Assembly: GCF_007750855.1 (NCBI RefSeq)
Contig: NZ_CP036291.1
Location: 5,864,905 to 5,928,904 of the forward strand
DNA: 64,000 bases
Origin: Pirellulimonas nuda
GTDB taxonomy: Bacteria; Planctomycetota; Planctomycetia; Pirellulales; Lacipirellulaceae
Direction of reading: 5' to 3'
Under the pieces are notes generated by a model. That model searched no databases. It worked only from the letters and a program-made list of their open reading frames with translations, and was not told where the DNA came from. Below, one piece after another: positions 15,359 through 47,084 of the stretch. A program made the position numbers and the translations under genes. Numbering within the stretch: the stretch's first letter is position 1; each line of letters begins with the position of its first letter.

Positions 15359-17164
15359 TTGAACGCGTTGTCCGAGCCAACAGCCACGCAAGAAGCAGAA
15401 CCGGCAGCGTCTCCCCCCGCCGCCCCCCCTCCCCCCTCTGGGCGCAAGGTCCTCTGCCTCAGCGGTCCCAACGACGGCGACGCCGACCTCGTGCGACGCC
15501 TGGGCGAAGGGGTCGAGGTAGTCACCGTCTCCTCCCCCGTACGCGCCCTGGCCTGCCTGGCGCGCGGCGAGTTCACCGGCATCTACGCAGACGCCGCCCA
15601 CTTCGCCCAGGCCGCCGACGCCGGGCGGCTGGTCCAGAACGAACAAATCCTGCAGGCCATGCCGGACGGCGTCGTGCTGCTCTCCGCGGACAACACCGTG
15701 CTGTGGGGCAACGGGCGCCTGAAGCAGTGGAGCAACGTCGATCAGGTCATCGGCCGCAACTTCTATCAGATCTTGGACAACCCAGAGATCCTCGGCCCCG
15801 AGTTCTGTCCGTTCAGCACCGCGCTTGCCAACCGCCAGGCCAGCGCCTCGACGCTTCGCTGCGAAGACGGCCGGCACTTCCGCGTTCACGCCGCGCCGGT
15901 GTTTGAGGGAGACCAGCCCCCGCAGCACCTGGTGGTGACCATCCGCGACGTCACCCAAGAGGTGCAGCAGCAGCAGAAGCTGGCCGCGATCCACCAGGCC
16001 GGCATCGAGCTGGCCGACCTCACCACCGACGAGGTCGCCGCGCTAACCGTCGACGAGCGGATCGAGCTGCTCAAGAGCAACATCCTCCACTTTACCAAAG
16101 ACGTGCTGCACTACGACGTGATCGAAGTGCGGATGCTCGAACAAAGCACCGGCGAGCTGATGCCGCTGCTGGCCGTGGGGATCAAGCCCGAGGCCGAACG
16201 ACGCAAGCTGTACGCCGAGGCGGAGGGGAACGGCGTCACTGGCTTCGTGGCCGCCACGGGCCAGAGCTACATCTGCGGAGACACCAGCGGCGACCCCATC
16301 TACATCGAGGGCGCCCAGGACGCACGCAGCTCGCTCACCGTGCCGCTGCTGCTGCACGACCAGGTGTTCGGCACCTTCAACGTCGAGAGCCCCGACCCCG
16401 GCGCCTTCGGCGAGGGGGACCTGCAGTTCCTCGAGCTGTTCTGCCGCGACCTGGCGGTCGCCATCAACACGCTCGACCTGCTCGCCGCGGAGAAGGCGAC
16501 CACCGCCGCGGCCAGCGTCGAGGCCATCCACAGCGCCGTGGCGGTGCCGGTAGACGAGATCCTGAACGACGCGGTCGGCGTGATGGAACGCTACATCGGC
16601 CACGAGCCAGACGTGGTTGAGCGGCTGCACCGCGTGCTGCGCAACGCCCGCGACATCAAGCAGGTGATCCAGAAGATCGGCCAGACTATGGCGCCGGTAG
16701 AGGCCCGCCCGCAGTGCGTGCGGATCGAGCCCCGCCCCGCGCTGGTCGGAAAGCACATCTTGGTGGTCGACGCGGACGACACGGTCCGCGGCGCCGCCCA
16801 CTCGCTGCTCGAGCGGTACCACTGCAACGTAGAGACCGCCCACGACGGCAAAGAGGCCATCGCGATGTTCCGCAGCTTCAGCCAGCCGGGCGCCCAGGGG
16901 GGGCAGTACGACGCGGTCATCGCAGACATCCGCATGCCGGACATGAACGGCTACGAGCTCATGCTAGAGCTGCAGAAGTTCACCCCGCACGTGCCGCTGA
17001 TCCTGATGACCGGCTTCGGCTACGACCCGGGGCACTCGATCGTCAAGGCGCGCCAGGCCGGGCTCAAAGAAGTCCTCTACAAGCCGTTCCGCCTCGATCA
17101 GTTGCTGGAAACCGTCGAACGGCAGATCGACGAGAGCCAAGCCGAGCCGGGCCAGAACGCTTAA
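15359..17164 (+). CDS. PAS-GAF-receiver signalling protein without kinase domain
   Basis: A 601-residue protein. Residues about 28-95 resemble a partial receiver fold; 96-205 form a PAS domain (MPDGVVLLSADNTVLWGNGR onward); 220-375 a GAF domain (SLTVPLLLHDQVFGTFNVES); 460-595 a canonical receiver (ILVVDADDTVRGAAHSLLE) with phospho-acceptor Asp523 in VIADIRMPDMNG, Thr in LMTGFG and Lys in YKPF. No histidine kinase or DNA-binding output is present, so it probably links a redox or ligand signal to a partner kinase. The start is TTG at 15359: GGAG is five bases upstream and no in-frame ATG fits. Thirteen bases separate it from the metallophosphoesterase gene, suggesting an operon. Confidence 0.78.
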   Translation: MNALSEPTATQEAEPAASPPAAPPPPSGRKVLCLSGPNDGDADLVRRLGEGVEVVTVSSPVRALACLARGEFTGIYADAAHFAQAADAGRLVQNEQILQAMPDGVVLLSADNTVLWGNGRLKQWSNVDQVIGRNFYQILDNPEILGPEFCPFSTALANRQASASTLRCEDGRHFRVHAAPVFEGDQPPQHLVVTIRDVTQEVQQQQKLAAIHQAGIELADLTTDEVAALTVDERIELLKSNILHFTKDVLHYDVIEVRMLEQSTGELMPLLAVGIKPEAERRKLYAEAEGNGVTGFVAATGQSYICGDTSGDPIYIEGAQDARSSLTVPLLLHDQVFGTFNVESPDPGAFGEGDLQFLELFCRDLAVAINTLDLLAAEKATTAAASVEAIHSAVAVPVDEILNDAVGVMERYIGHEPDVVERLHRVLRNARDIKQVIQKIGQTMAPVEARPQCVRIEPRPALVGKHILVVDADDTVRGAAHSLLERYHCNVETAHDGKEAIAMFRSFSQPGAQGGQYDAVIADIRMPDMNGYELMLELQKFTPHVPLILMTGFGYDPGHSIVKARQAGLKEVLYKPFRLDQLLETVERQIDESQAEPGQNA

Positions 17165-18478: not shown

Positions 18479-20413
18479 ATGCGTTCTGTCGCCCAACCCG
18501 CCCGAACGCGAGCCTCCGCCGGCGCCTCGACCGCCAACGCCTCAACCGCCGGCGGGTGGACCGACCTGGCGACCGACGGCGAGCTGCTGGGCGTTTACTG
18601 CCGCACCGGCGACCAGCTAGCATTCAGCCGCTTGGTGGACCGGCACGGCACGATGGTGGCCGCCGTCTGCCGGCGGGTGCTGCGCAATGAGCACGACGCA
18701 GACGACGCCCTCCAAGCCACGTTCCTGCTGTTGGCGCGCCACGGCCGCAGCGTGCGCGGGGGCGAGTCGTTGGCGGGCTGGCTCTACAGGGTCGCCTTCC
18801 GCACCGCCATCGCCGCCCGCAAGCGGCGCCTGCGGCGACGCGAAGAACCGCTGCCGGCAGTCGAGGCGCTCCCCGCGGAAGAGGCCTTCCCCGACCTCAC
18901 CGGGCGGCACGCGGTGGGTGTGCTGATGCAGGAGTTGGCCCTGCTGCCAGAGCAGTACCGCACGCCGCTGGTGATGCGGCACCTGGAGGGGCAGTCGCGC
19001 CGCGCGATCGCCGAGCGGACCGACGCCACCATCGCCGCGGTGCAGGGCCGGCTGGCCCGCGGCGCCAAGCTGCTGCGTCAGAAGATGCTCAGGCGCGGCG
19101 TCTCGTTCGCCGCGGCGGTCACAACCCTCGCGGCCGCCAGCGGGCGGGCCGCTGCGTCCCCCGACGCCCTACGTCTAACCCTCAAGTACGCCGTCGGCGA
19201 CCCGGGCGCCGTGTCGCCGACGGCCGCTTCTCTCTACCACGAAGGAGTACGAACGATGCTAATCGCCACGCTCGCCAAGCCGCTGGCCGTCGCCGCGGCC
19301 GCCTCGCTGCTCGCCCTCGCGGCGGTCGCGCCGGCCGCCTGGGGAGACGGTCCCGCAGGACAGACCGAGGGGCTGAGCTTGTCGACCGCGGTCGAACTGG
19401 GGGGCGACGACCCGAGCGGCGCCGATGTGGTGCTCGCCGGCAACGACGGCGCTGTTGCGGCAGAAGGCGAATCGCTCGGCCTGGCCGCCGATGACCGGTT
19501 GACGGTGCAAGTCACCGCCAAGCAAGGGCCGCAATGGCGTGCAGACGACGCGAACTCCAAGCAGCGCCTCAGCGAGCACGAAGGGAACCTGATCGAGGCG
19601 ATCGAGCGGGTCGACGAATCGATGGCGGAGCTGGAGGAGAGCCTCGGCTTCACCAGCGGGCGGCTGGCGGACAAGCGGAAGCAACTCCTCAGCGCGCTCG
19701 AGTCGGTGCGGGTGATGCAGATCGACGCCCTGGCGTCCGACGCGTACGTGGGAGCGATCCTTGCTTCGACCGGCCCCAAGCCGAGCGGGCCTAGCAGAGG
19801 CAAACCGGTGCAAGCGCCGATTGCGGCGCTTCAGCCTGCCAGCCCGACGCCGGCGCGACACGCATACCAACGCCCCCCCGCCATCGAACACGACCTATGG
19901 CCCCAGGCGACTAGCACGAGCTGGGCAGGCTCGCCCCAAAACCAGCCAAGCAGGCCGGCCTACTTCCCGCACGCGCCTCAGCAGCTCGGTCCGCTGGGCG
20001 ACCCCAACGGCGGCTACACCGAGCGCAACAAGGCGTACGGCTACTCGGTGCAGCAGCTACAGGAACGGCTTAACCTGGTGCTGGACCCGTCGCCAATGCT
20101 GAAAGTCGACGGCGACCTAGGCCCGGCCAGCACGGCCGCGGTGAAACGATTCCAGCAGCAGGCGGGCCTCCCCTCGACCGGCGTTGCCGATCAAGCGACC
20201 CGCACTGCCCTCGGCCTGTTCGGCGGGCCAGCGCCAGCCAACTGGGGGTTCAACGCACCGGTGAACCAACAGGCGCCTCAGTACTCGGCGCCGGGCGGGT
20301 TTCAGCAGGGCGCCGCGCCGCCGGGAGCGTACGCTCCTGCAGACCTTGTCCCCACGCCCGCGTCGGCGACCTGGCAAGAGCAAGCATTCCCAGCGCCATC
20401 GCCATCGCGCTAA
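18479..20413 (+). CDS. ECF sigma factor fused to membrane segment and peptidoglycan-binding domain
   Basis: A 644-residue fusion. Residues about 35-115 are sigma region 2 (AFSRLVDRHGTMVAAVCRRV, DADDALQATFLLLARH, WLYRVAFRTAIAARKRRLRR); 155-215 are sigma region 4 (LLPEQYRTPLVMRHLEGQSR then RAIAERTDATIAAVQGRLAR). A hydrophobic segment follows at 262-290 (PLAVAAAASLLALAAVAPAA), then about 230 residues of variable sequence and a PG_binding_1 motif at about 520-585 (VQQLQERLNLVL, DGDLGPASTAAVKRFQQQAG). The design suggests a sigma factor tethered to the membrane with a wall-sensing outer domain, perhaps released by proteolysis. Planctomycetes are known for ECF sigma factors with long extra-cytoplasmic tails. 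An internal ATG at 19256 has GAAGGAG eight bases upstream and could start a separate secreted product. Confidence 0.8.
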   Translation: MRSVAQPARTRASAGASTANASTAGGWTDLATDGELLGVYCRTGDQLAFSRLVDRHGTMVAAVCRRVLRNEHDADDALQATFLLLARHGRSVRGGESLAGWLYRVAFRTAIAARKRRLRRREEPLPAVEALPAEEAFPDLTGRHAVGVLMQELALLPEQYRTPLVMRHLEGQSRRAIAERTDATIAAVQGRLARGAKLLRQKMLRRGVSFAAAVTTLAAASGRAAASPDALRLTLKYAVGDPGAVSPTAASLYHEGVRTMLIATLAKPLAVAAAASLLALAAVAPAAWGDGPAGQTEGLSLSTAVELGGDDPSGADVVLAGNDGAVAAEGESLGLAADDRLTVQVTAKQGPQWRADDANSKQRLSEHEGNLIEAIERVDESMAELEESLGFTSGRLADKRKQLLSALESVRVMQIDALASDAYVGAILASTGPKPSGPSRGKPVQAPIAALQPASPTPARHAYQRPPAIEHDLWPQATSTSWAGSPQNQPSRPAYFPHAPQQLGPLGDPNGGYTERNKAYGYSVQQLQERLNLVLDPSPMLKVDGDLGPASTAAVKRFQQQAGLPSTGVADQATRTALGLFGGPAPANWGFNAPVNQQAPQYSAPGGFQQGAAPPGAYAPADLVPTPASATWQEQAFPAPSPSR

Positions 20414-20468
20414 CCTTCGGATCCCAACCGCAGATAAACCGCCCTGGCCGAAGCGCCTGAGCGCCCGC

Positions 20469-22466
20469 TCAGAACTGATAAATCGCACACCCCACCTGCA
20501 CCCCCGCCCCCACGGCGATCATCAGCCCCAGGTCGCCCGGGGCCGCCCTGCCGGAGTCGACCGCGGTGCGGTACGACTGCGGGACGCTTGAGGTCGCCAG
20601 GTTCACCGTGGCGTCGCAGCAGACCGTCCGGTCGAGCGGAAAGCCCAGCTCCTTGGCGACGCGCGCCGGGAATCCGGCGTCGACCTGCGGCGGCAACAGC
20701 ACGCCGATGTCGTCGAGCGCTAGCTGCTGCGACTCCAGCAGCCGCCCCACCGCGACGCCGATCGCCCGCACGTACGCGTCGTGCAGCTTCTCGCCCCGGC
20801 GGCCGATGATGTGGGGCCGCTCGCCGACGCCCCAGCTCACCTGCACCCCTTCTTCGTCGATGGCGGAGAGGTCGTCGTAGAACTCGAACGCCAAGAAGCC
20901 GTCGCCCGCCTCGCTCTCGGCGAGCAGCGCGGCCGAGGCCATCTCTTCGAGCCCCAGCACGGTGTCGGCGCCCAGGATGCGGCCGTTCTCTACCTCCGAG
21001 GCCAGCACCATCGCGGCGGTCAGCTTGCCGGCGGTCGCCAGCTCGCCGGCCAGGAAGCACGCCTTGAGGAAACCGACGGGGCCGTTCATCACGTCGAAGG
21101 CCAGCGTCTTCTTGGCGTGGCCGGCGGGGCGGTCGTCGTTCATCCGCAGCCGGCCCGCCACCAGCGCGGCGATGGCGGGCTCCATCACAAAGTCGGTGCG
21201 GTAGGTCGAGGTTGAGAGCAGCAGCTCAACGTCGTCCAGGCCCACCGGGCCGGCGGCCAGGCACTGCTCGGCCGCGGCGGCGAGCATGCCCACGGTGTCG
21301 ATCTCCTCGGGCGACCCCGGGCGGTGCACCGCCACCGAAGCAAGCCTGAGCGTGGCGCCGATGGTGCCGGCGGGCTTGTGCTCCTCGGCGGTTGAACGCG
21401 TCTGCCCGGCAGCGCTGTGCAGCCGGTCGGGGAGGTCGTCCAGCGTATAGAGCGCGGTGCCGGTGGTTTGGCCGGAGCCCGAGATGCAGAACACCACCCG
21501 GTTGCGCGAGCCGACTTGTTTCCGCTCGGTGGCGTCGAACATCGCCAGGAAGTGGCTGTTGCTGGAGGTGTTGCCGCGCTCGGGCAGGTTGTTCACGCAG
21601 CGGGCCCACAGGTCGTGCCCGTAGAGCCGGTCGATCTCTTTCATCCCCTCCTGCATCGTGAGCTGCGAGGTCTGGTGCGGCACGACGCAGTCGATCGAGT
21701 CGAGCGTCCAGCCGTGGCGGTCCAGCACCAGCTTGGCGTGTCGGGCCGCGTGGGGCACGACCGCCTCGGTCACCTTGATGGCGTCGGTGAGCATCACGGG
21801 CCGGCCGGCGGCCTCGCTGGAGGGCTTCGCCACGCAGTGCGGGGCGTACTTGCCCAGGGTGTAGAGGTCGAGCGCGTGCAGGCCGACCTCCGGCGAGGGA
21901 GACCGGCCCAGCGCCACCGCCACCCCCGCGTCGCCGAGCGTGAGCGAGGCGATCTGCGGGTCCATGAAGTCGGTGATCTCTTGCTGGGCGGAGTCGATCA
22001 GGTAGCTGATGTACTCGCCGCTCACCACCAGCGCGTGGCGGGCCGCGCCGGTGCGGATCATCGCGTCTGCCAGGTACACCCCGGTCCACATGCCGGCGCA
22101 GGCGTTCGAGACGTCGATCGCCAGCGCGCGGCCGAGCCCCAGCCGCTGCTTCAGCTTGATGCTGGTGGCGGGCTCGTACGAGATGGTCTTCTCGCTGTCG
22201 CAGCGCGAGATGTTGGTGCAGACCACCAGGTCGACCTGTTCGGGCGCCAACGCGCCGCGGGTCAGGCAGTCGCGCGCCGCGGCCTCGGCCAGGTCGATGG
22301 AGTAGAGCCCGTCGCCGGCCAGGCGCCGCTCGCGGATGCCGGTGAGCCGCTCCAGGGGCAGCCGCACCGAGTTCACGCAACCCGCCACGATGTCGCGCGT
22401 AGCGACGCGTCGCTCCGGGAGGGCGACGCCGATGCTCTCGAAGATGCTCTGCGTAACGACGGACAT
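20469..22466 (-). CDS. fused tandem ketoacyl-ACP synthase III-like protein, second half catalytically degenerate
   Basis: A 665-residue protein of two KAS III (FabH-like) units. The first (1-330) has the full triad: Cys123 in DVSNACAGMW, His264 in VVPHQTSQ and Asn299 in ERGNTSSNS. The second (about 365-665) aligns by pattern but has Pro463 (VMNGPVGF), Pro593 (LLPPQVD) and Ala624 (VNLATSS) at these sites, so it cannot do the same chemistry. Start ATG 22466 follows the NRPS stop by 47 bases, making it the last gene of the operon. KAS III enzymes condense acyl groups with ACP-bound or other nucleophiles. An active/inactive pair recalls the PqsC/PqsB heterodimer. Here it may release or further condense the NRPS-bound chain; this is inference. 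Confidence 0.8.
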   Translation of the reverse strand: MSVVTQSIFESIGVALPERRVATRDIVAGCVNSVRLPLERLTGIRERRLAGDGLYSIDLAEAAARDCLTRGALAPEQVDLVVCTNISRCDSEKTISYEPATSIKLKQRLGLGRALAIDVSNACAGMWTGVYLADAMIRTGAARHALVVSGEYISYLIDSAQQEITDFMDPQIASLTLGDAGVAVALGRSPSPEVGLHALDLYTLGKYAPHCVAKPSSEAAGRPVMLTDAIKVTEAVVPHAARHAKLVLDRHGWTLDSIDCVVPHQTSQLTMQEGMKEIDRLYGHDLWARCVNNLPERGNTSSNSHFLAMFDATERKQVGSRNRVVFCISGSGQTTGTALYTLDDLPDRLHSAAGQTRSTAEEHKPAGTIGATLRLASVAVHRPGSPEEIDTVGMLAAAAEQCLAAGPVGLDDVELLLSTSTYRTDFVMEPAIAALVAGRLRMNDDRPAGHAKKTLAFDVMNGPVGFLKACFLAGELATAGKLTAAMVLASEVENGRILGADTVLGLEEMASAALLAESEAGDGFLAFEFYDDLSAIDEEGVQVSWGVGERPHIIGRRGEKLHDAYVRAIGVAVGRLLESQQLALDDIGVLLPPQVDAGFPARVAKELGFPLDRTVCCDATVNLATSSVPQSYRTAVDSGRAAPGDLGLMIAVGAGVQVGCAIYQF

Positions 22467-22513
22467 AGCGGGCGCTGGGGCGGGACGGATCGGGGATTGG
22501 GCCGGCGGACCAG

Positions 22514-25500
22514 CTACACGTCGCTGGTGCGGGCGGCCGGCGTCTGGGCGACAGCATACCCCGAAAGGTCCGTCTTGGTCCCCCCGGCCCGGGCTTCGGG
22601 CGGGGCCTCTGCGTGGGGCGTGCGGCCCGGCGCCAGCCGCTGGGCGAGCTGTGCGATGGTGGGAAACTCGAACAACAACGCGGGGGAAAGCCCCGCTTGG
22701 GGCAGCGTGAGCCCCTTTTCTTCCGCCAGCGCGACGATCCGCAGGCTCTTGAGCGACGCGCCCCCCAGCTCGAAGAAGTCGTCGTGGACCCCCACCTTCT
22801 CGAGCCCCAGCACCTCGGCCCACGCCTCGGCCAGCACCCGTTCGGTGGGGCAGCGCGGCGCCACGTAGTCGGGCCGCTTGGCTGCGGCCGTCCGCAGCCG
22901 CAGCGGCAGCCGGTCGACGCACACCTTGCCGGTCGACCCGGTCGGCAGCTCGTCGAGCCATTCCACTTGGCGTGGGACCATGTAGCCGGGGAGACGGGCC
23001 CGCAACGCCGTGAGTGTACCTGACTCGTCCGTCGCGGCGCCTTCGGCCGTCACGCAGTAGGCCACCAGCACCGGGTCGCCCGCGTCGTCTGTCGCCACGC
23101 GCATCGCGGCCCGGCGGATGGCGGGTAGCGCTTCGAGCGCCCGCTCGACCTCGCCCAGCTCTACCCGGTAGCCGTGCAGCTTCACCTGGCGGTCGAGGCG
23201 GCCGAGGAACTCGATCTGACCGAGGTGGTTCCAGCGGGCCAGGTCGCCGGTGCGGTACGCGCGGGCGGACGGGTCGATGGGGTCGGCGACGAACCGGCGA
23301 TCGGTGAGCGACTTGTCTCCCAGGTAGCCCGCGGCGAGCGCCGGCCCCGCGATCCACAGCTCGCCCGCCACGCCGATGGGCGCCAGCCTGCCGTGCGCGT
23401 CGACGACGTAGGCGCTGCGCCCCGGCAGGGGCCGCCCGATGGGCGCCCGGCCGCGCGCGGGGTCGAACTCGGCCAGGTCGCTCGTGGTGGCGGTCACCAC
23501 GATCTCGGTCGGACCGTAGGCGTTCAGCACCCGCACGCCGCGGCCGGTCCACTTGGCGGCCAGCGCCGCCGGGAAGGCGTCGCCCCCCACGATCACCAGC
23601 CGCAGCGAGGCAGGCAGCGGCGTGGGCGCCGCGTCGCTGCACTCGCGGAAGTACGCCGGGGGGACGTTGGCCACGCTCACGCCGCGCTCATCCAACCGGC
23701 GCCAAAACTCCGCGGCCGACCACAGCTCGGGGCCGCGCATCTCCAGCGCAGCGCCCTTGGTGAGCGCGGTCCATACCTGCTCCAACGACGGGTCGAACGT
23801 GGCGCCGCTGAACTGCAGCACCACGTCGCTCTCGGCCGTGCCGAACTGGGCGGCCGCGCTTGCGACGTGCTGCGCAAAGGCGCCGTGCGACACACGCACC
23901 CCCTTGGGCCGGCCCGTCGAGCCGGAGGTGTAGATCACGTAGGCGTCGTCCCCGTCCGAATCACCCCGGGGGGCGCCGTCGCGGGCGACGCTGCACGCGT
24001 GGTCCATGGCGAACCACATCGGGTCCCCCGAGACGCCAAGCCGCCCCGCGACCTCGGCGTGGGTCAGCACGAGCGCCGCGTCGCAGTCGTCCAGGATGGT
24101 AAGCAGGCGGTCGAGGGGGCCCCCCTCGTCCAGCGGCACGTAGGTCGCCCCCAGCTTCCACAGCGCAAGCTGCGCGATCACCGTGTCCGGCCCACGCCGC
24201 AAGCAGCAACCGACGCACCGGCCGCGTAGCCCCGCACGCTGCAACCGGCGGGCGAGGCGCCCCGCCCGGGCGTTCAGCTCGGCGTAAGTCAGCGACTGGT
24301 CGTCGCAGCGGATCGCGGTCTTGCGGGGGGTGCGTCGCGCGGCCCGCTCAAAGGCCTCGATAACCGGCGCGGCGTCTGAGTCGACCGGGGCGCCCCGCGA
24401 CCAATCCAGCAGTTGCTCTTGCTCCGGCGTCGACAGCAAGGAAATCGCCGCCATCGGCGCGGCCGAACGCTCCAGCAGCAATCCGAGCAGCGTCTCGAAG
24501 TGCGCCGCGAATTGCGCGGCGCTAGCGTCGTCCATGAGCTGAGGGTCGTACTTCAGCAGCCCGCGGTAGCCGTCGCTCTGTTCGTACAGCTCCATCACCA
24601 GGTCGAACTGCCCCTCCTGCTGATCGAGCGGGAAGGCGCGCACCCGCAGCCCCCCCCAGTCGATCGGCGCCGAGTCTTCGTTGAGCGCGTCGGCCACCTG
24701 GCTGAAGCGGTGGGGCTTCTGCAGGCCGAAGGCGACACGGCACAAGGGGAGCGCCCCCGGCTCGCGCGGCGGGTTGAGCCGTTCGACCATCAACGCGAAC
24801 GGGAAGTCTTGCGAGCGGAGCGCCTCGAGCGTCCGCTCCCGCGTCTGGCGGAGCAGGTCGTCGAACGACCAGTCTTCTTTCAGCTCCGCGCGGATCGGCA
24901 GCGTGTTCACAAAGTAGCCCAGCACCTGGGCAAACTGGCTCTTGGTGCGGCCCGACGTGGTGGCGCCCACGACAAAGTCTTTCTGCCCCGACTGCCGGTG
25001 CAGGGCCGCTTGGAACGCCGCCAGCAGCGTCATGAACGGCGTGGCGCCGTGCGCCTTGGCGACGCCGCGCACCCGGTCCGCTACTTCTCCTGCGACGTGG
25101 AAGTGGAGCGTGGCGCCGCGGCCGGTACGCGCGGCCGGGCGGGGGCGGTCCCACCGAGGCTCGCCGGGGGTGGCGCCTTCGAGCCGGGCCCGCCAGGCGT
25201 CCCACTGCCGCTTCCCTTCGTCCGAATCGGGCAACGCGTGCTGCCACTCGGCGAACTGCGCGAAGGTGGCCTGCGGCGTCGGCAGCGCCAGCGTCTGGCC
25301 CGCGGCCAGCGCCGCGTACAGCTCGCCGAGCTCCTCGTGCAAGATCCACAAGCTCCACGCGTCGAACACGATGTGGTGCATCGCCAGCAGCAGCACGTGG
25401 CGGTCCGGCGCAATGCTCAGAAGCCGCAGCCGCGCGAGCGGGCCTTGCCGCAGGTCGAACGGCTCGGCATAGGCTTCTCGCACGCGCGCCTCGAGCGCCG

Positions 25501-25965
25501 GGCCGTCGGCGTCTGGGCAGCAGTGACGCGAGGCGTCGATGACCGGATCGGCGTGCACCACGCAGCGCAGGCCGTCTCGCTCCGACGCAAACGTGGTGCG
25601 GAGCGCCTCGTGCCTGGCGACCAGCATCCGCCAGGCGGCGTGCAGGGCGTCGAAGTCCACCTCCGACTCAACCCACGCCGCGGACGCCACGTTGTACGCG
25701 GGGCTGTCGGGCGCCCCTTGGTGCACCATCCACAACGCCTGCTGCCCGTAGGAAGCGGGGTGGGTTTTCTCGATGGGCTGCGACGCCGCGTCCTCGCTGA
25801 GCAGCGCCACCAGCGCCGGCTTGTGCCGCTTGAGCTCGCGCATCACCGCGGGGCCGGCCGCCCCCTCGGGCGCCCGGAAGCGGAGCAGCTCTCCCTCGAC
25901 CCACAGCCGCCAGCCCTGGGCGGTGAGGTCGTCGTACAGCGTTTGGGCCGCGGATGCAGGGTTGT

Positions 25966-25969
<4 letters not shown>
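22514..25969 (-). CDS. non-ribosomal peptide synthetase, TubC dock-C-A-PCP
   Basis: A 1151-residue single module. The N-terminal 60 residues (LYDDLTAQGWRLWVEGELLR) match a TubC-type docking domain. The condensation domain (about 65-500) has the active-site motif as MHHIVFDAWSL, with the last Gly of HHxxxDG replaced by Ala. The adenylation domain (about 510-1010) shows VIYTSGSTGRPKG (A3), NAYGPTE (A5) and YRTGDLARW (A7). The carrier (1040-1115) has the phosphopantetheine Ser in LGGASLKSL. There is no thioesterase or reductase. The ATG at 25969 overlaps the upstream PKS stop in ATGA, so translation is coupled. By eye the specificity pocket begins Asp-Pro-Glu; I cannot name the amino acid with confidence. 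Confidence 0.88.
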
Positions 25970-29835
<3,866 letters not shown>

Positions 29836-29860
29836 ACGATCCTTATGACTTTTTGCGGCC

Positions 29861-38362
<8,502 letters not shown>

Positions 38363-38702
38363 CACGTTGTCGTTGTGGGAAGGGGCGCCAGCCGGCGCCG
38401 ACGGCCGGGCGGTTCTACCCTCCTCCTACGATCGTGCCTCCTAGCAACATGCCGGCTGCGACAGTTCAGTTACGCCCTATTGAGCAAGCTGTTACGTGAA
38501 ACGCTAGCGTTGCGGGCCGCTTGGCGACCCACCGCAAGCCACCCTGATTACCCAGGCCTAATTTCTTAACAACTCAGCCCGCCCAACGCAAGCTAAAGGG
38601 CGGCAACATGTTCCGACGAATCCAGCCCCTTCCAATCCGGCGCCACAAGCAGTCATTGCTGGCGCCTTCTGTGTACATCGAACGAACACGGCCCGCCGCA
38701 CG
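38363..38702. other. divergent regulatory region between PKS operon and epimerase gene
   Basis: This 340-base region must hold the promoters of both directions. Its centre is AT-richer than the surroundings (around 38455-38575). On the minus strand TTGTTA (38566-38571) is followed after 16 bases by TAATCA, a weak candidate promoter for the operon. No operator palindrome was identified with confidence, and no gene is seen. Confidence 0.4.
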
Positions 38703-39722
38703 ATGACTTCCGCTCGCATCCTTGTAACCGGCGCGGCCGGCTTCATTGGAAAACGTCTGTGCGACCACCTGCGCACTGCCGGCAACCCTGTGCGCGCGGC
38801 AACCCGCACCGAGGCGTCGGCGCAGCGGCTCAGGGACGACGGGTGGGACGCCCGGTGCGTCGAGATGAGAGACCCATCGGCCTTGGCCGCGGCGCTCGAA
38901 GGGGTTGATCAAGTTTACCACTTGGCGTCGGTGGTTTCTGCCCGTTCGTTTGCGGCGGCCCGCCAGGTCAATGTCGAGGGCTCGCGGCTGCTGGCCCTCG
39001 AGGCCGCCAAGCGGGAGTCTCCCCCGCGGTTGCTGTACGTCTCCTCCCTGGCGGCCAGCGGGCCGGTGGAGGGGGGACGCGCGCGGACCGAGGCCGACCC
39101 GGGCCGGCCCGTTTCCTACTACGGCCGCACCAAGCTCGAAGCCGAGCAGGCCCTGCGAGGCCTGGCCGACCGGCTCCCGGTGGTGGCGGTCCGTCCCCCG
39201 GGGGTTTTTGGGCCGGGCGACCTGAACCTGCTGCAGATGTTCCGCTCGGTGCGGGCCGGCCTGAACTTTGTTGCGGTGTCGCAGCGGTACCGCTACTCGT
39301 TTGTCTACGTCGAGGACCTGGCCGAAGGCATGCGTCGGGCGATGGAAGCCGGAGACCGGCTGACGCACGACCACCCTTCCGATGGGCTCTATTTCCTGGC
39401 CGATCCGCAGCCGATGACCTTCGGCCAGCTCGGCGACGCGGTCGCCGCGGCGCTTGGGCGCCGGCCCCCGCGCTGCGTGACCATCCCCGCGGCGGGCTGC
39501 TGGGGGGTCGCCACGGCGCCCGAGCTGTGGGGCCGGCTCACCGGCGCCAAGACCTACCTGAACTACGACAAGATCCGCGAAGCGGTCGCCGGCGAGTGGT
39601 TCTGCGACCCCGCACGCGCCGACCGGGAGCTCGACTGGCGCCCAGAAAAAGGCCTCGCAGACCGGCTGATCGACACGCACAACTGGTATGTCCGTCAGAA
39701 ACTGCTGCCGGCCAACAGATAG
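38703..39722 (+). CDS. NAD-dependent epimerase/dehydratase family protein (extended SDR)
   Basis: A 339-residue extended short-chain dehydrogenase. The dinucleotide site is ILVTGAAGFIGKRL (GxxGxxG), and the catalytic YxxxK is YYGRTKLEAE with the Ser in YVSSLAASG. Later PPGVFGPGDLN fits the family. Members epimerise or reduce sugars, sterols or acyl-derived ketones with NAD(P). It is divergent from the PKS operon with a shared 340-base promoter region, so it may reduce or modify the cluster product; equally it may be an unrelated sugar or sterol enzyme. The ATG at 38703 begins directly with the Rossmann strand. No signal peptide; cytoplasmic. Confidence 0.8.
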   Translation: MTSARILVTGAAGFIGKRLCDHLRTAGNPVRAATRTEASAQRLRDDGWDARCVEMRDPSALAAALEGVDQVYHLASVVSARSFAAARQVNVEGSRLLALEAAKRESPPRLLYVSSLAASGPVEGGRARTEADPGRPVSYYGRTKLEAEQALRGLADRLPVVAVRPPGVFGPGDLNLLQMFRSVRAGLNFVAVSQRYRYSFVYVEDLAEGMRRAMEAGDRLTHDHPSDGLYFLADPQPMTFGQLGDAVAAALGRRPPRCVTIPAAGCWGVATAPELWGRLTGAKTYLNYDKIREAVAGEWFCDPARADRELDWRPEKGLADRLIDTHNWYVRQKLLPANR

Positions 39723-42644: not shown

Positions 42645-45600
42645 TCACACAGAGGGTGTCCGCCCGCGCCTCAACAGGGGCGTCAGCGATAGGGCCACGC
42701 CGAAAAGGGCCAGCATCACGCCGGCGGGCTCCGGGACGCTGGCGGACGCCGTCGCGGCCCCGCCTGCTAGGTGGTCGCGCCACACCGAGAAGTCGGCCGC
42801 GTCGACGATGCCGTCGAGGTTCCCGTCGGCGCCGTCTCCTGGCGAGGCGACCGGGGCGCCGAAGCTAGACCTCCAGATTAGGTAGTCGGCTGCGTCCACC
42901 ACGCCGTTGCGATCGTAGTCGCCCGGGACGAAGGCCAACGCGATCGTAAGCGTGGCCGTGGGGGCGACGTAGTCCTGCGAGTACGTGTCTGTCCCAAGAG
43001 CTAGTGTGAACGGTAAACCGTCCGCCAGCAGGCCGCTCAAGACCCCGCCGCGGCTGGCGATCGTCAGGGGCTCTGCGCCGGACATCGTCTGAGACAGGTC
43101 CACCCCATCTAGCACAAACGACCGGCCCACGAGGTTCAGCGTGCCGCCGTCGACGACCCGCACGTTGGCGCCCAACGTTCCGCCGGACATCTCCACCACG
43201 CCGTCGCGGAATACGTATAAGTTCTCGCCGATGCTGCCGCCAGAGATGTTGATCTGACCGCCGGAGTGGGCGTGGAGGTCGTCTCCCACGGCGCCTCCAG
43301 AGATGTTCGCCACGGCGCCATCGAAAACGTCGAAGGAGCTTCCCACGCTGCCTCCGGAGATGTTCACCGTGGCGCCACGGAAGGCGTCAAAGCCCTCGCC
43401 GACCGCGCCGCCGGTGATGGTCACTTGCGCGTCGATTGCTTCGAGGTTGTCGCCGACGGCGCCCCCCGCCTGGACGGCGAGTTGGCTGAGCCGGCCCGCG
43501 TTGAAGTTCTGACCCAGGACCTCGCCTCCCGTCACGGTACGGCTCTCGCCGGCGATCAGCCCGTTCCTCGGCTTGTTAAGCGTGGACGTCGTTGGGCCAA
43601 AGTGGCTCCGCGACAGAGTGAGCGAATTGGGCCGAATCGTGTCGCCGTCGATCGGCGCTAGGACGAACGGCGTGCCGTCTTCGAGCGTGCCGCTGAGCAC
43701 TTCATTCTGAGAGAGGTTCTGTGCGATGGTCGCTCCGACGGTCGCAAGAGCAGCGATGGGTTCGCCGTTCAAGCGGAAATCGGATCCATGGATCGCCAGC
43801 GAAGCAGAGAACGAGCTGGTGGTGACCCCGTCGCCCGTCGAGCCGCCGGATACCACCACGGCGCCGTCGTTGTCTAGGCTGAGGCTACCAAGGATATTGC
43901 CGCCGTTGACGTGGACGACCGAGTCTCCGCGGGCGGAGAGGGCCGCGACCGAGCCGGCGTTGATCTCCACTAGTCCCTCGCTCTGGACGCTTATCAAACG
44001 GTCGATCGTTCCCCCGTCGACCTGCAGTTCTCCAGATACAGACACCGACGTTCGAAGCGTTGGGTCGCCCCCAATGACGCCGCCTTTCACCACGTAGCGA
44101 CCGCCGGAGCTCACAGTTAAGCCTTGCACGATACCCCCGGTGCTTTGTCCCGAGGCGTCGCCAGCGATGCGGAGCTCGAAATCGATCTCGCCCCCCGATA
44201 CGGAAACAAACCCGCCGGCAAGCATCTGAAGGTCGCGCGTATGACCACCAGCCACAGTGACCAACCCTGCGGAACTGAACCCTGCGCCGATCTCGCCCTC
44301 CGAGATCAAGATGCTGCTCCCGGCGAAACCCTGCAGGCCGACGCCCACCACGCCCCCCCCCACTGAGACGGAGGAGCCCGGCAGCGCGTCGAAGTCGTGC
44401 CCCACCGCCCCCCCCGCGACGATCACCGCCCCGGCCGCCTCGAGGTTGTCGCCGACGGCGCCCCGGGGCTCGACCCACACGAGGCTGTTGTAGCCTGCGT
44501 TGAAGTCGTTCACGGGCGCTGCGCCGGAGGCGTCGAACCGCACGAGTTGGCCCGTGCGGACGCCAAGCGGCAACGCCCCGGACGACGCGGTAAAGACCGT
44601 TTGGGTGACCGGCGCCACCTCCGCGGCGTGGAGCGAGAACCCGCCGGCCGCGAGCACGTCGCCGTCTTCCTTCGAGAATGCGAACGGCGTGCCATCGGCC
44701 AGCGTGCCGGAGAGCACGTCCGTGGGGCCGAGCGAGGGGACCACCACGTCTCCGACGGTCGTTAGCCCCGCTAGTGGCGCCCCGTTGATGCGGAAGTCGC
44801 CCCCGTGCAGCATTACGGTCCCGCCGCTGTCGATCATGAAGAACTGGCCAAATCCGCCACCGGTAACCTTCGCCTCTGCCCCCGTGTGTACGCGGAGGGT
44901 GCGACCGAGCTTGCCGCCAGAAATTTCGATCGAGGCGTCCGTGGCGATATCAACGCCGACGCTGAAGCTGCCGCCGGAGACCGACACTTGGCTGCCCGGC
45001 AGCACCCGCAACGCGTTGCCGTAGACCTCGCCGAACGATCCGCCAGAAATCTGTACGTCGCTGCCGGCTAGCGCAGTAAATGCTACGCCAAACCGGCCTC
45101 CTTCGACGCGCACCGAGCTCCCCGAATGGGCCTGAAATATGCCGCCTACTGCGCCGTCGGTGACAGTAACATGGGACGCGGCAAAGGCGTCGAAATCGGA
45201 CGCGATTGCGCCGCCGGCTACTTCAACCACCGCGCCGACGGCCTCGAAATTCTTACCGATCGATCCACCCGGGAGCACACGCACGGTGCTGCCGGGCCCT
45301 GCGCCAAAGGAGCTAGGCACAACGGCGCCGGCCCCAACTAGCAGCGTCTGGCCACTTCGAACCCCCGCCGGAACGGCGTCGAAGGGGGCGTTGATCGTTG
45401 CGGGACCGGCTGGCAGCGCCGCTGCTCGTCGCAGGATGATGGTTTTGTTGTCCAGCGAATCGCCATCGGTAGGAGAGAACGCGAACGGGGTCCCGTCTGC
45501 GAAGAAACCAGAAAAGAGAGAGCCGAATGGCACTTCGAACGTCGCCTGCTCCGCCACGACCGCAGGGCCCGCGACAGCCACGCCATCTAGGTAGAACTCG

Positions 45601-47084
45601 CTACCCTCCAAGAGGGTGTTGCTGCTGTTGGAAAAGAGTGTCCCGTCGGCGAACAACCCGCCCGAAATCGACACGTTGCTCCCGCTGCCCGCGGTAAAGC
45701 CCTCAAGCAGTCCACCCGAGATGCTCACGGTTGATCCAGAAGCGGCGGCGAAGCGGGTTTGCACCGTCCCCCCAGAGATCGACACATTGGATCCACTCGA
45801 CGCGACGAACTTCTGGCCGACCAGCCCGCCCGAGATATGCACTTGGCTTCCGGCCCGGGCCGCGAAGTCCTCACCGATGGTCCCGCCAGACATCGTAAAG
45901 ACGCTATCGCTCAACGCGCTGGCGTCATCGCGTATCGTGCCCCCAGAAAAGTTCAGCGTACCGTGGGTTGTTAGTCCCTCATTGACCCACCCACCCGAGA
46001 TATTGACGACGCTTCCCGCCTGGCCGTCGAATGTCTTGCCGACAGCGCCCCCCGAGATGTTGACGACGCTCCCGCCCCCGGCGCGAAACCGATCACCGAC
46101 GCTGCCGTCGCGGATGTTCACGGTCGACCCGACGGTGGCGTAGAACTCGACTCCTACCGTCCCCCCCTCGATCGCCACGTTGCTGCCCGTGTGAGCGTAA
46201 GCGAAGTTGCCGAGCGTCCCCCCCGCGCTGGCGATCGGGCTCCCCAACAGGGTCACCTCTGCGCCGTAGAACCGGGCGTTGTTCCCCACGGCGCCGCCGG
46301 GTTCGATGATCAACTCGCTCCCCGCGGTCGCCTGGAAGTTGGCGGGCAGGGCGGCGCCCGAGTCGACCCGCAGGGTCTGCAGGTCGCCGATCGTGGTCGG
46401 CACGGGGTCGAGCGAAGCCACGATCAGCGACCGCGGGTTGGCGGGGGAGGCGATCGCGTGCACGCTCAGCGTCCCGGCGGCGATGTCGCCATTGGTCGAT
46501 CGGATGAACAGCGGCGACCCATCCGCGAACGCGCCGGTCAGGATGTACTGGGTCGGCAGGTCGATCTGCAGGCTGGCCCCGGCGGCCTCGAGCCCCGCGA
46601 TCGGCTGGCCGTTGATCCGCAGATCGGCGGCAGAGATCGACACGGAGCTGCCCGCGGGCGCGCTGATGCCGGCCACCGTCACCCCGCCGGTCATGGTCAT
46701 GCTGACGCCGGGCCGCAGGCGCACGAAGCGGATGAACCCGTCCGACAGGTTGAACGTGCTCCCCTGGTCGAATTGCGGCTGACCGAGAACGCCGCCGAGC
46801 AGGTTGATTTCTTGGTTCTGTACCTTTCCCAGGTGATCGCCGAACCCCGGGATCGACAGGTTCGCTCCTTCGAAGATGTTCACCTGGGTGTCCGATCCCA
46901 GGACCGCCGGGAGCGGGTCGGACGGCAGGTTGATCACCGTCGTAAACTGACCCCACGCGTCGCTCGCTATCAGCGCGGCAGCAGTTAGCACGCCCCAGAG
47001 GGAAAATCGACTCCGACTGGAAGTGGAGAAACAGAAGGCAGGCATGCGTGTGGCTCGCGGCCGAGGCGTGGGGTATGGCGTCAT
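42645..47084 (-). CDS. giant modular surface protein, ISGG repeats, dockerin and PEP-CTERM sorting signal
   Basis: A 1479-residue exported protein. A signal segment (about 28-46: FSLWGVLTAAALIASDAWGQ) is followed by at least five super-modules, each closing with an ADGTPF...DGD element (for example SGTLADGTPFAFSKEDGD), between which run more than fifteen short VNISGG or VSISGG units, typical of parallel beta-helix or autotransporter-like passengers. Near the C terminus two calcium loops (DYDRNGVVDAADYLIWRSSF and DGNLDGIVDAADFSVW) form a dockerin type I domain. The final VPEPAGVMLALFGVAL segment with RRGR is a PEP-CTERM signal for exosortase processing. So it should be a surface or exopolysaccharide-associated protein. 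The ATG at 47084 has no clear ribosome site; an in-frame ATG at 47045 is an alternative start. Confidence 0.8.
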   Translation of the reverse strand: MTPYPTPRPRATRMPAFCFSTSSRSRFSLWGVLTAAALIASDAWGQFTTVINLPSDPLPAVLGSDTQVNIFEGANLSIPGFGDHLGKVQNQEINLLGGVLGQPQFDQGSTFNLSDGFIRFVRLRPGVSMTMTGGVTVAGISAPAGSSVSISAADLRINGQPIAGLEAAGASLQIDLPTQYILTGAFADGSPLFIRSTNGDIAAGTLSVHAIASPANPRSLIVASLDPVPTTIGDLQTLRVDSGAALPANFQATAGSELIIEPGGAVGNNARFYGAEVTLLGSPIASAGGTLGNFAYAHTGSNVAIEGGTVGVEFYATVGSTVNIRDGSVGDRFRAGGGSVVNISGGAVGKTFDGQAGSVVNISGGWVNEGLTTHGTLNFSGGTIRDDASALSDSVFTMSGGTIGEDFAARAGSQVHISGGLVGQKFVASSGSNVSISGGTVQTRFAAASGSTVSISGGLLEGFTAGSGSNVSISGGLFADGTLFSNSSNTLLEGSEFYLDGVAVAGPAVVAEQATFEVPFGSLFSGFFADGTPFAFSPTDGDSLDNKTIILRRAAALPAGPATINAPFDAVPAGVRSGQTLLVGAGAVVPSSFGAGPGSTVRVLPGGSIGKNFEAVGAVVEVAGGAIASDFDAFAASHVTVTDGAVGGIFQAHSGSSVRVEGGRFGVAFTALAGSDVQISGGSFGEVYGNALRVLPGSQVSVSGGSFSVGVDIATDASIEISGGKLGRTLRVHTGAEAKVTGGGFGQFFMIDSGGTVMLHGGDFRINGAPLAGLTTVGDVVVPSLGPTDVLSGTLADGTPFAFSKEDGDVLAAGGFSLHAAEVAPVTQTVFTASSGALPLGVRTGQLVRFDASGAAPVNDFNAGYNSLVWVEPRGAVGDNLEAAGAVIVAGGAVGHDFDALPGSSVSVGGGVVGVGLQGFAGSSILISEGEIGAGFSSAGLVTVAGGHTRDLQMLAGGFVSVSGGEIDFELRIAGDASGQSTGGIVQGLTVSSGGRYVVKGGVIGGDPTLRTSVSVSGELQVDGGTIDRLISVQSEGLVEINAGSVAALSARGDSVVHVNGGNILGSLSLDNDGAVVVSGGSTGDGVTTSSFSASLAIHGSDFRLNGEPIAALATVGATIAQNLSQNEVLSGTLEDGTPFVLAPIDGDTIRPNSLTLSRSHFGPTTSTLNKPRNGLIAGESRTVTGGEVLGQNFNAGRLSQLAVQAGGAVGDNLEAIDAQVTITGGAVGEGFDAFRGATVNISGGSVGSSFDVFDGAVANISGGAVGDDLHAHSGGQINISGGSIGENLYVFRDGVVEMSGGTLGANVRVVDGGTLNLVGRSFVLDGVDLSQTMSGAEPLTIASRGGVLSGLLADGLPFTLALGTDTYSQDYVAPTATLTIALAFVPGDYDRNGVVDAADYLIWRSSFGAPVASPGDGADGNLDGIVDAADFSVWRDHLAGGAATASASVPEPAGVMLALFGVALSLTPLLRRGRTPSV

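Follow-up and report, generated by a model that had tools for sequence, protein, structure and literature searches.

Introduction

The closest described counterpart of the gene treated here is LstAB of lipstatin biosynthesis, a heterodimer of KAS III proteins which, according to a 2025 review (PMC12141560, section 5), condenses two acyl-CoAs to an alpha-branched beta-keto acid. LstA has the triad C128/H271/N305, mutation of E60 in LstB abolishes activity, and the condensation is called non-decarboxylative in a title cited in that review. Citing the LstAB paper, the review further draws attention to transitions between heterodimeric and naturally fused enzymes (PMC12141560), and the fusion of the two partners by itself may have been published before. 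Here we analyse a stretch of 64,000 nt from the genome of Pirellulimonas nuda (GCF_007750855.1, NZ_CP036291.1, 5,864,905–5,928,904), referred to below as the window, in which a cluster of four genes at 20469–38362 encodes an assembly line with a fatty acyl-AMP ligase (FAAL), polyketide synthase (PKS) modules and a non-ribosomal peptide synthetase (NRPS) module, and ends in a tandem KAS III protein, gene 4. We propose, with a probability of about 0.6, that the assembled chain is released by gene 4, a putative fused LstA–LstB-type condensing pair, by means of a non-decarboxylative Claisen condensation.

Gene 4 resembles LstAB in having the catalytic triad in one partner and a Glu in the other, the Glu having been found essential only in the case of LstB E60 (PMC12141560, section 5). 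It differs in that both partners form a single polypeptide, which in most loci follows an NRPS or FAAL carrier protein, either fused to it or as the next gene, and in that its substrate is presumably carrier-bound whereas that of LstAB is CoA-bound. It appears to be a fused variant of the LstA/LstB type and not LstAB itself, being one chain of 665 residues and not two polypeptides. A second enzyme of relevance is OleA, a homodimer whose Glu117 is reportedly, from the title of a study on it, key to condensing two acyl-CoAs.

Results

The two halves of gene 4

Domain calls for the four cluster proteins (Pfam, E 0.01) place ACP_syn_III and ACP_syn_III_C in gene 4 in two stretches, and its features are as follows.

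20469..22466, minus strand: gene 4, 665 aa, predicted fused LstA–LstB-type KAS III pair
21417..22466, minus strand: N half, LstA-like, with Cys123-His264-Asn299 (alignment, tree)
20472..21353, minus strand: C half, LstB-like, without catalytic Cys or His, with Glu429-Pro430 (alignment, tree)
21180..21182, minus strand: codon of Glu429, the proposed base, aligned with OleA E117 (alignment)

Residue conservation was followed in an alignment of 52 family members (the window, L025 and 50 of the 80 best loci described below; L038 and near copies were left out). Cys123, His264 and Asn299 of the N half are present in all 52. At the corresponding places of the C half there is never a Cys (A 23, S 13, G 12, P 2, E 2) and never a His (P 46, S 4, Q 2), and the Asn position is Asp in 47 sequences and Asn in two. 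Both halves contain an invariant Glu-Pro (E98-P99 and E429-P430, 52/52). Both E98 and E429 match, in alignment, the 'LEP' Glu of an OleA-family protein that the genome itself encodes, corresponding to residue 117 in the chains of X. campestris OleA; this Glu is found in five of five OleAs and none of nine FabHs, which have M, I, V, T or L instead, and none of the 11 single KAS III stretches compared has a Glu at the 98/429 position. Asn121 of the N half (NAC) is also as in OleA, where all nine FabHs have Ala.

Likeness to X. campestris OleA thus comprises the equivalent of Glu117 in both halves, the NAC and LTxG motifs and a Z of ~40 for the N half. The differences are that gene 4 belongs to a separate clade and that a gene of the OleA family is present separately in the P. 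nuda genome, at C1:5301843. FabH shares the fold and the triad and differs in being a homodimer, in being decarboxylative and in lacking the Glu at 98/429. Gene 4 scores below the cut-offs of both families: 167 bits against 285 for OleA (NF006720), and 203 against 249 (PRK09352) and 173 against 292 (TIGR00747) for FabH. In a structure model of high reported confidence (pLDDT 92.0, pTM 0.94) the N half superposes on chains of PqsD, FabH, OleA and PqsBC with Z ~38–41, a score that does not discriminate between them. No chain among the 50 structure matches listed spans both halves (highest TM by query 0.45), the C half not having been folded alone, so that absence of such a chain is unproven.

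Relation to split LstA- and LstB-type pairs

In a search of 246 actinobacterial genomes with a C-half alignment, 11 genomes matched at 1e-25, three of which carry the fused form. Ten loci were found with adjacent LstA-type and LstB-type genes. The triad is present in all ten LstA-type proteins; the LstB-type proteins have neither Cys nor His at the catalytic places and all ten have the Glu, at residue 57–59 in nine frames and, in L146, whose frame is longer, at 73. The position is near that reported for LstB, E60. Among the LstA-type partners one lacks the Glu (Ala, L129), as expected if only that of LstB is needed. OleC-like and OleD-like genes lie beside three of the ten pairs (L128, L145, L147), and in L145 the LstA-type, LstB-type, OleC-like, OleD-like and NRPS adenylation (A) genes stand in a row, which we take to be the make-up of a lipstatin-type operon. 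Separately, the actinobacterial split pairs of L140–L144 and L146 have no OleC- or OleD-like genes in the 14 kb examined, which would point to another use of the pair.

A tree was calculated with 23 of the 52 aligned members, the LstA- and LstB-type rows being the actinobacterial split-pair proteins and not the named LstA and LstB themselves. All six groups are separated from the rest by a single branch each. The C half joins the LstB-type proteins with an SH-aLRT support of 99 and the N half joins the LstA-type proteins with 94; the fused N halves group with 97 and the fused C halves with 92. Scores with profile hidden Markov models (HMMs) give a similar picture. The N-half HMM scores 266–303 bits on LstA-type proteins, 79–123 on FabH and 93–108 on OleA, and the C-half HMM scores 122–182 on LstB-type proteins and at most 97 on fused N halves, LstA-type proteins, FabH and OleA. 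The simplest reading of these sequences is that an LstA/LstB-type pair was fused once and that the fusion was later attached to many assembly lines.

Distribution of the fused pair and its place behind carrier proteins

A scan of 84,980 species genomes yielded 386 stretches encoding a relative of gene 4, and all locus counts below refer to the best 80 of these. All 80 relatives are near full length; eight of the loci are on contigs that also occur in a separate set of loci. Domain labels of the 80 come from single-sequence seeds, with a Pfam check on some proteins. The record titles name Pirellulaceae and other planctomycetes, Mycobacterium, Mycolicibacter, Nocardia, Bacteroidota, Ktedonobacteria (Chloroflexi), Acidobacteriota, Gemmatimonadetes, Lentisphaeria and others. 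No relative was found in the viral contigs scanned.

Of the 80 loci, 55 have the pair fused to the end of a carrier protein. In 53 of these a condensation (C) and/or A domain lies upstream, and in the other two, where a FAAL and carrier precede the pair, neither C nor A was found (L101 by Pfam check, L104 by seeds only). In five more (L035–L039) it is a separate gene that immediately follows an A-PCP gene at a distance of less than 60 nt (PCP, peptidyl carrier protein). Pfam confirms FAAL-ACP-C-A-PCP-pair in a single protein in L050 and FAAL-ACP-pair in L101 (ACP, acyl carrier protein). The common element of most loci is therefore a carrier protein followed by the pair, whatever chain is carried. 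Within the order, full-length homologues occur in nine of 196 genomes (that of P. nuda included), with two copies in G067. The homologue in genome G164 has 51% identity and a window-like layout; seven further genomes, at ~40%, hold eight copies, six of which are fused to an A-PCP or C-A-PCP module, while the G194 copy runs off its contig and no fusion is visible for G067:C112.

Two sets of relatives show further conserved neighbours. Directly after the fused pair of glycine-type loci (L029 at 16063–16518, L030–L033, L050, L052) lies a conserved hydrophobic protein of 143–154 aa, probably a membrane protein; in most loci a phosphopantetheinyl transferase (PPTase) adjoins it, and the L029 copy has no Pfam or NCBIfam match. 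Eight Bacteroidota loci (L040, L042, L044, L045, L047, L056, L100, L103) form a conserved orphan cluster with the fused pair, a P450 and a PPTase divergent from the FAAL, a luciferase-like monooxygenase and genes for ACP-KS-AT-DH-KR-carrier (KS, ketosynthase; AT, acyltransferase; DH, dehydratase; KR, ketoreductase).

The assembly line of the window

The other three genes of the cluster are as follows (ER, enoylreductase; cMT, C-methyltransferase; TE, thioesterase).

29861..38362, minus strand: gene 1, 2833 aa, FAAL-ACP-KS-(no AT)-DH-cMT-ER-KR(Tyr to His)-ACP
36593..38302, minus strand: FAAL domain of gene 1 (Pfam/NCBIfam profile matches)
35027..36271, minus strand: KS of module 1, gene 1 (Pfam)
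30578..31138, minus strand: KR domain of gene 1, His at the catalytic Tyr position (alignment with other KRs)
25966..29835, minus strand: gene 2, 1289 aa, KS-AT-DH-ACP
22514..25969, minus strand: gene 3, 1151 aa counted from the ATG, TubC docking domain-C-A-PCP, no TE

An earlier note on this DNA had described four co-directional genes spaced by 25 nt, an ATGA overlap and 47 nt, and the coordinates agree (29836–29860 between genes 1 and 2, 25966–25969 shared by genes 2 and 3, 22467–22513 between genes 3 and 4). Its reading of FAAL loading, two PKS modules, one NRPS module and a KAS III pair is borne out by Pfam, which finds AMP-binding, PP-binding, KS, DH, methyltransferase, ER, KR and PP-binding in gene 1, KS, AT, DH and PP-binding in gene 2, and the TubC docking domain, C, A and PP-binding in gene 3. 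It had also reported no thioesterase, reductase or cyclisation domain, and indeed no thioesterase, NAD_binding_4 terminal reductase or cyclisation family is matched in the four proteins by Pfam at E 0.01. By eye, TACSSS, HGTGT and NIGH are seen in the KS of both modules, HxxxGxxxxP in both DHs, GHSLG and HAFH in the AT and HHxxxD in the C domain, and the carrier-protein serines are kept. We take the HAFH of the gene 2 AT to be of the malonyl type. No sigma-70-like site was found in window positions 20300–38800.

The note knew of no counterpart of this layout; in fact there are close relatives in Rhodopirellula, Neorhodopirellula, Aporhodopirellula and G164. The gene order of the window is repeated in G164 (L027, L025) and in four Rhodopirellula-type genomes (L036–L039, L148–L151), and this recurrence makes the layout more than chance.

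Gene 1 has no PF00698 (AT) match, and Pfam finds neither KR nor ER in module 2 although a DH is present. The DNA of the two modules aligns on both sides of the AT place, with ~900 bp, corresponding to the AT, missing from gene 1; the C-terminal part of the KS and the linker (34857–35799 against 28280–29222, minus strand) share 946 bp at 92.2% DNA identity, the rest being diverged. A stretch of this identity flanking the gap indicates, from sequence comparison, a recent duplication or gene conversion. Since PF00698 has only two matches in the genome, the AT of module 2 and one FabD-like frame of 305 aa, module 1 must draw on one of these. In the G164 cluster the AT is in neither module, and in the four Rhodopirellula-type clusters it follows the KS of module 1 (90–102 bits) with none in module 2, so that a window-type cluster (the window, L025, L036–L039) never has more than one AT for two modules. 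The modules seem to share a single AT or to use one in trans. The KR of gene 1 has His where the solved KRs of MAS and EryAI have Tyr; the His is shared by all six window-type clusters, while the set's 55 other KRs have Tyr, which suggests that the KR is inactive or altered. The note's product with one C-methylated, fully reduced extension is not supported here: gene 1 has the methyltransferase, DH and ER, and the missing AT, the His of its KR and the lack of a KR in module 2 make 'fully reduced' unsafe.

The A domain of gene 3 has the code DPENIGAVTK, and all six window-type clusters have DPENIGA[VI]TK. None of the codes looked for occurs in the text of a 2024 A-domain review, and the PDB relatives also leave the substrate of DPENIGAVTK undecided. 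Other members carry other codes. DPWH[FI]SLIDK occurs in 27 loci, those listed being all Mycobacteriaceae, and DVWH[IV]SL[IV]DK in Ktedonobacteria and Nocardia loci, both of which codes we assume to be serine-like; further mycobacterial loci have different codes. PDB matches of a mycobacterial A domain include Txo1, Txo2 and EntF, which load serine; linear gramicidin synthase scores higher. A planctomycete group of loci has DILQLGMIWK, in our view a glycine-like code.

Two other frames of the window were noted from their translations, by eye only: a protein of 1479 aa with repeated 'GSxVxISGGxV'-like strands and a C-terminal PEP-type tail (42645–47084, minus strand), and one with an ECF-sigma-like N-terminus and a long region with a peptidoglycan-binding-like part (18479–20413, plus strand).

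A fifth gene and Ole-like neighbours

Across a gap of 340 nt from the FAAL gene, a short-chain dehydrogenase/reductase (SDR) gene runs in the opposite direction.

38363..38702, between the strands: divergent region separating the SDR and FAAL genes, 340 nt (coordinates)
38703..39722, plus strand: fifth gene, extended SDR (HpnA/OleD-like), proposed beta-keto reductase (profile scores, conserved linkage)

G164 and the genomes of L036–L039 each have a homologue, the best match of its genome, with 43–48% identity (215–315 bits). In all five relatives it lies divergent beside the FAAL gene, 15.7–17.6 kb from the pair, so that the linkage holds in six of six window-type clusters, the window included. 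Because this divergent placement is conserved, the SDR belongs to the cluster as its fifth gene. OleD is named 2-alkyl-3-oxoalkanoate reductase in NCBIfam and an OleD-like SDR therefore fits a beta-keto product, a point weakened by the distance of the window SDR from OleD.

Similar genes accompany the pair elsewhere. In 15 of the 80 loci, mostly of Mycobacteriaceae, the frame that directly follows the pair encodes an SDR, all of these from one BLAST cluster. In two Bacteroidota loci, L043 and L107, OleC-like (~630 bits) and OleD-like (~416 bits) genes, both below cut-offs, lie beside the pair; no other OleA-like gene is present in the examined DNA of these loci, only the pair matching OleA, and the fused pair may stand in for OleA there. 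The same neighbourhoods (L043 4118–7657, L107 5613–9134) hold OleB-like, OleC-like and OleD-like genes and a P450 gene, with a PPTase in L043. The SDR of L055, a glycine-type locus, scores 146 bits to 3-ketodihydrosphingosine reductase (cut-off 400), with other SDR subfamilies higher. Also near the pair are a fatty acid desaturase (cluster of three loci), a hydroxylase (one locus) and a sulfotransferase (cluster of three loci); that these would fit a membrane lipid is speculation from few loci.

Discussion

Proposed release by the pair and the alternatives

The earlier note left offloading unsolved. The KAS III pair is the likely release device, given its fusion to the end of a carrier protein in 55 of the 80 loci and its position immediately downstream, as a separate gene, in five others. 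By analogy with LstAB and OleA, the sequence of events would be as follows. The FAAL would activate a fatty acid, the two PKS modules would extend it and the chain would be joined in an amide to one amino acid on the NRPS PCP. From there it would move to Cys123 of the N half, while Glu429 of the C half would deprotonate a second acyl thioester (acyl-CoA or acyl-ACP); a non-decarboxylative Claisen condensation would then join both chains and free the PCP. The beta-keto product could be reduced by the divergent SDR, or could lose CO2 to give a ketone which the SDR then reduces. With the acylaminoacyl chain as electrophile, the compound after CO2 loss would be R-CO-NH-CHR'-CO-CH2-R'', which with serine is the 3-keto-dihydroceramide skeleton. 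The N-acyl amino acid expected by the note gives way to a different prediction, since the family residues and the relatives point to joining with a second acyl chain.

Several observations weigh against release of this kind. The tree groups OleA with FabH, and by HMM the N half is no nearer OleA (93–108 bits) than FabH (79–123). The precedent is a single enzyme, LstAB (PMC12141560, section 5), which was compared by its described residues and not by its own sequences. The window SDR is below cut-offs and scores higher with HpnA (108.8 bits, cut-off 368) than with OleD (NF042422, 89.2 bits, cut-off 580). No OleC was seen in the window cluster, an OleC-like gene (529 bits, below cut-off) lying elsewhere in the genome. 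In 14 of the 80 loci the pair is a gene of its own and FAAL, KS or PCP genes lie at other places of the locus, in five no such gene was found in the examined DNA and one is cut by the contig edge. Finally, the Cys-His-Asn of all 52 N halves is the FabH triad (PMC4807248).

This last point, together with FabH chains being the best PDB sequence matches, speaks for a decarboxylative, FabH-like release, in which the pair would add malonyl-ACP to the PCP-bound chain and the resulting beta-ketoacyl-ACP would undergo hydrolysis, loss of CO2 to a methyl ketone, ring closure to a tetramic acid or further elongation by fatty acid synthase. We consider this unlikely: none of the nine FabHs has the Glu found at 98 and 429, the halves join LstA- and LstB-type proteins in the tree and not FabH, and the SDR and Ole-type neighbours fit the non-decarboxylative route.

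It is rather improbable that the pair makes or loads the starter and has no part in release, an unlinked thioesterase or spontaneous hydrolysis freeing an N-acyl amino acid. The genome does have two thioesterase-family (PF00975) matches over the cut-off (C1:303913 and C1:6319058) and in those 14 loci no carrier-protein gene immediately precedes the pair; on the other hand, starter loading is already provided by the FAAL, the 55 fused loci have the pair on the C-terminal side of a carrier protein and the two thioesterase matches fall within frames of 1843 and 2045 aa at a great distance from the cluster. Thioesterase release was rejected on account of these long, distant frames, the genome-wide search having covered PF00975 only.

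Transfer of the chain from the N half to an O or N nucleophile has its models in the KAS III acyltransferases ChlB3 and CerJ, but these use Cys-His-Asp (PMC9573744) where Asn299 is found in all 52 members here, and such transfer, which we regard as very improbable, would leave the invariant Glu and the OleC/OleD-like neighbours unexplained. Least likely of all is a PqsBC-like reaction, in which a small beta-keto acid would be condensed with the chain. PqsBC is likewise a pair of one active and one dead KAS III half with pseudo-2-fold symmetry and gives structural matches of Z ~39, but it consists of separate polypeptides with other substrates, has Val299 in PqsC in place of the Asn that is invariant here and, in the part of PMC4807248 consulted, is described without any role for a Glu.

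Returning to Claisen release by the fused pair, we found no characterised cluster with this layout and no description of an NRPS-pair fusion in open-licence PMC full texts; they may exist elsewhere. Possibly, and we advance this as a doubtful extension, the LstAB-type pair is the standard release domain of a large class of FAAL/PKS/NRPS lines making two-chain N-acyl-alpha-amino ketones or alcohols. The members loading serine by their codes (mycobacterial and Ktedonobacterial) would then produce the 3-keto-dihydroceramide skeleton, reduced where an SDR adjoins, and the window cluster would be a C-methylated member with another amino acid. If true, this would be a route to ceramide-like lipids without serine palmitoyltransferase.

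For P. nuda, a cluster without an exit gains a testable one, and release of an NRPS chain by C–C joining to a second acyl chain would, if true, be an unusual exit. As the fused pair is found across many phyla, the chemistry of gene 4 would be informative for orphan clusters of this entire class, for which two-chain amino lipids are the predicted products, and the cluster probably points to an unrecognised class of bacterial lipids.

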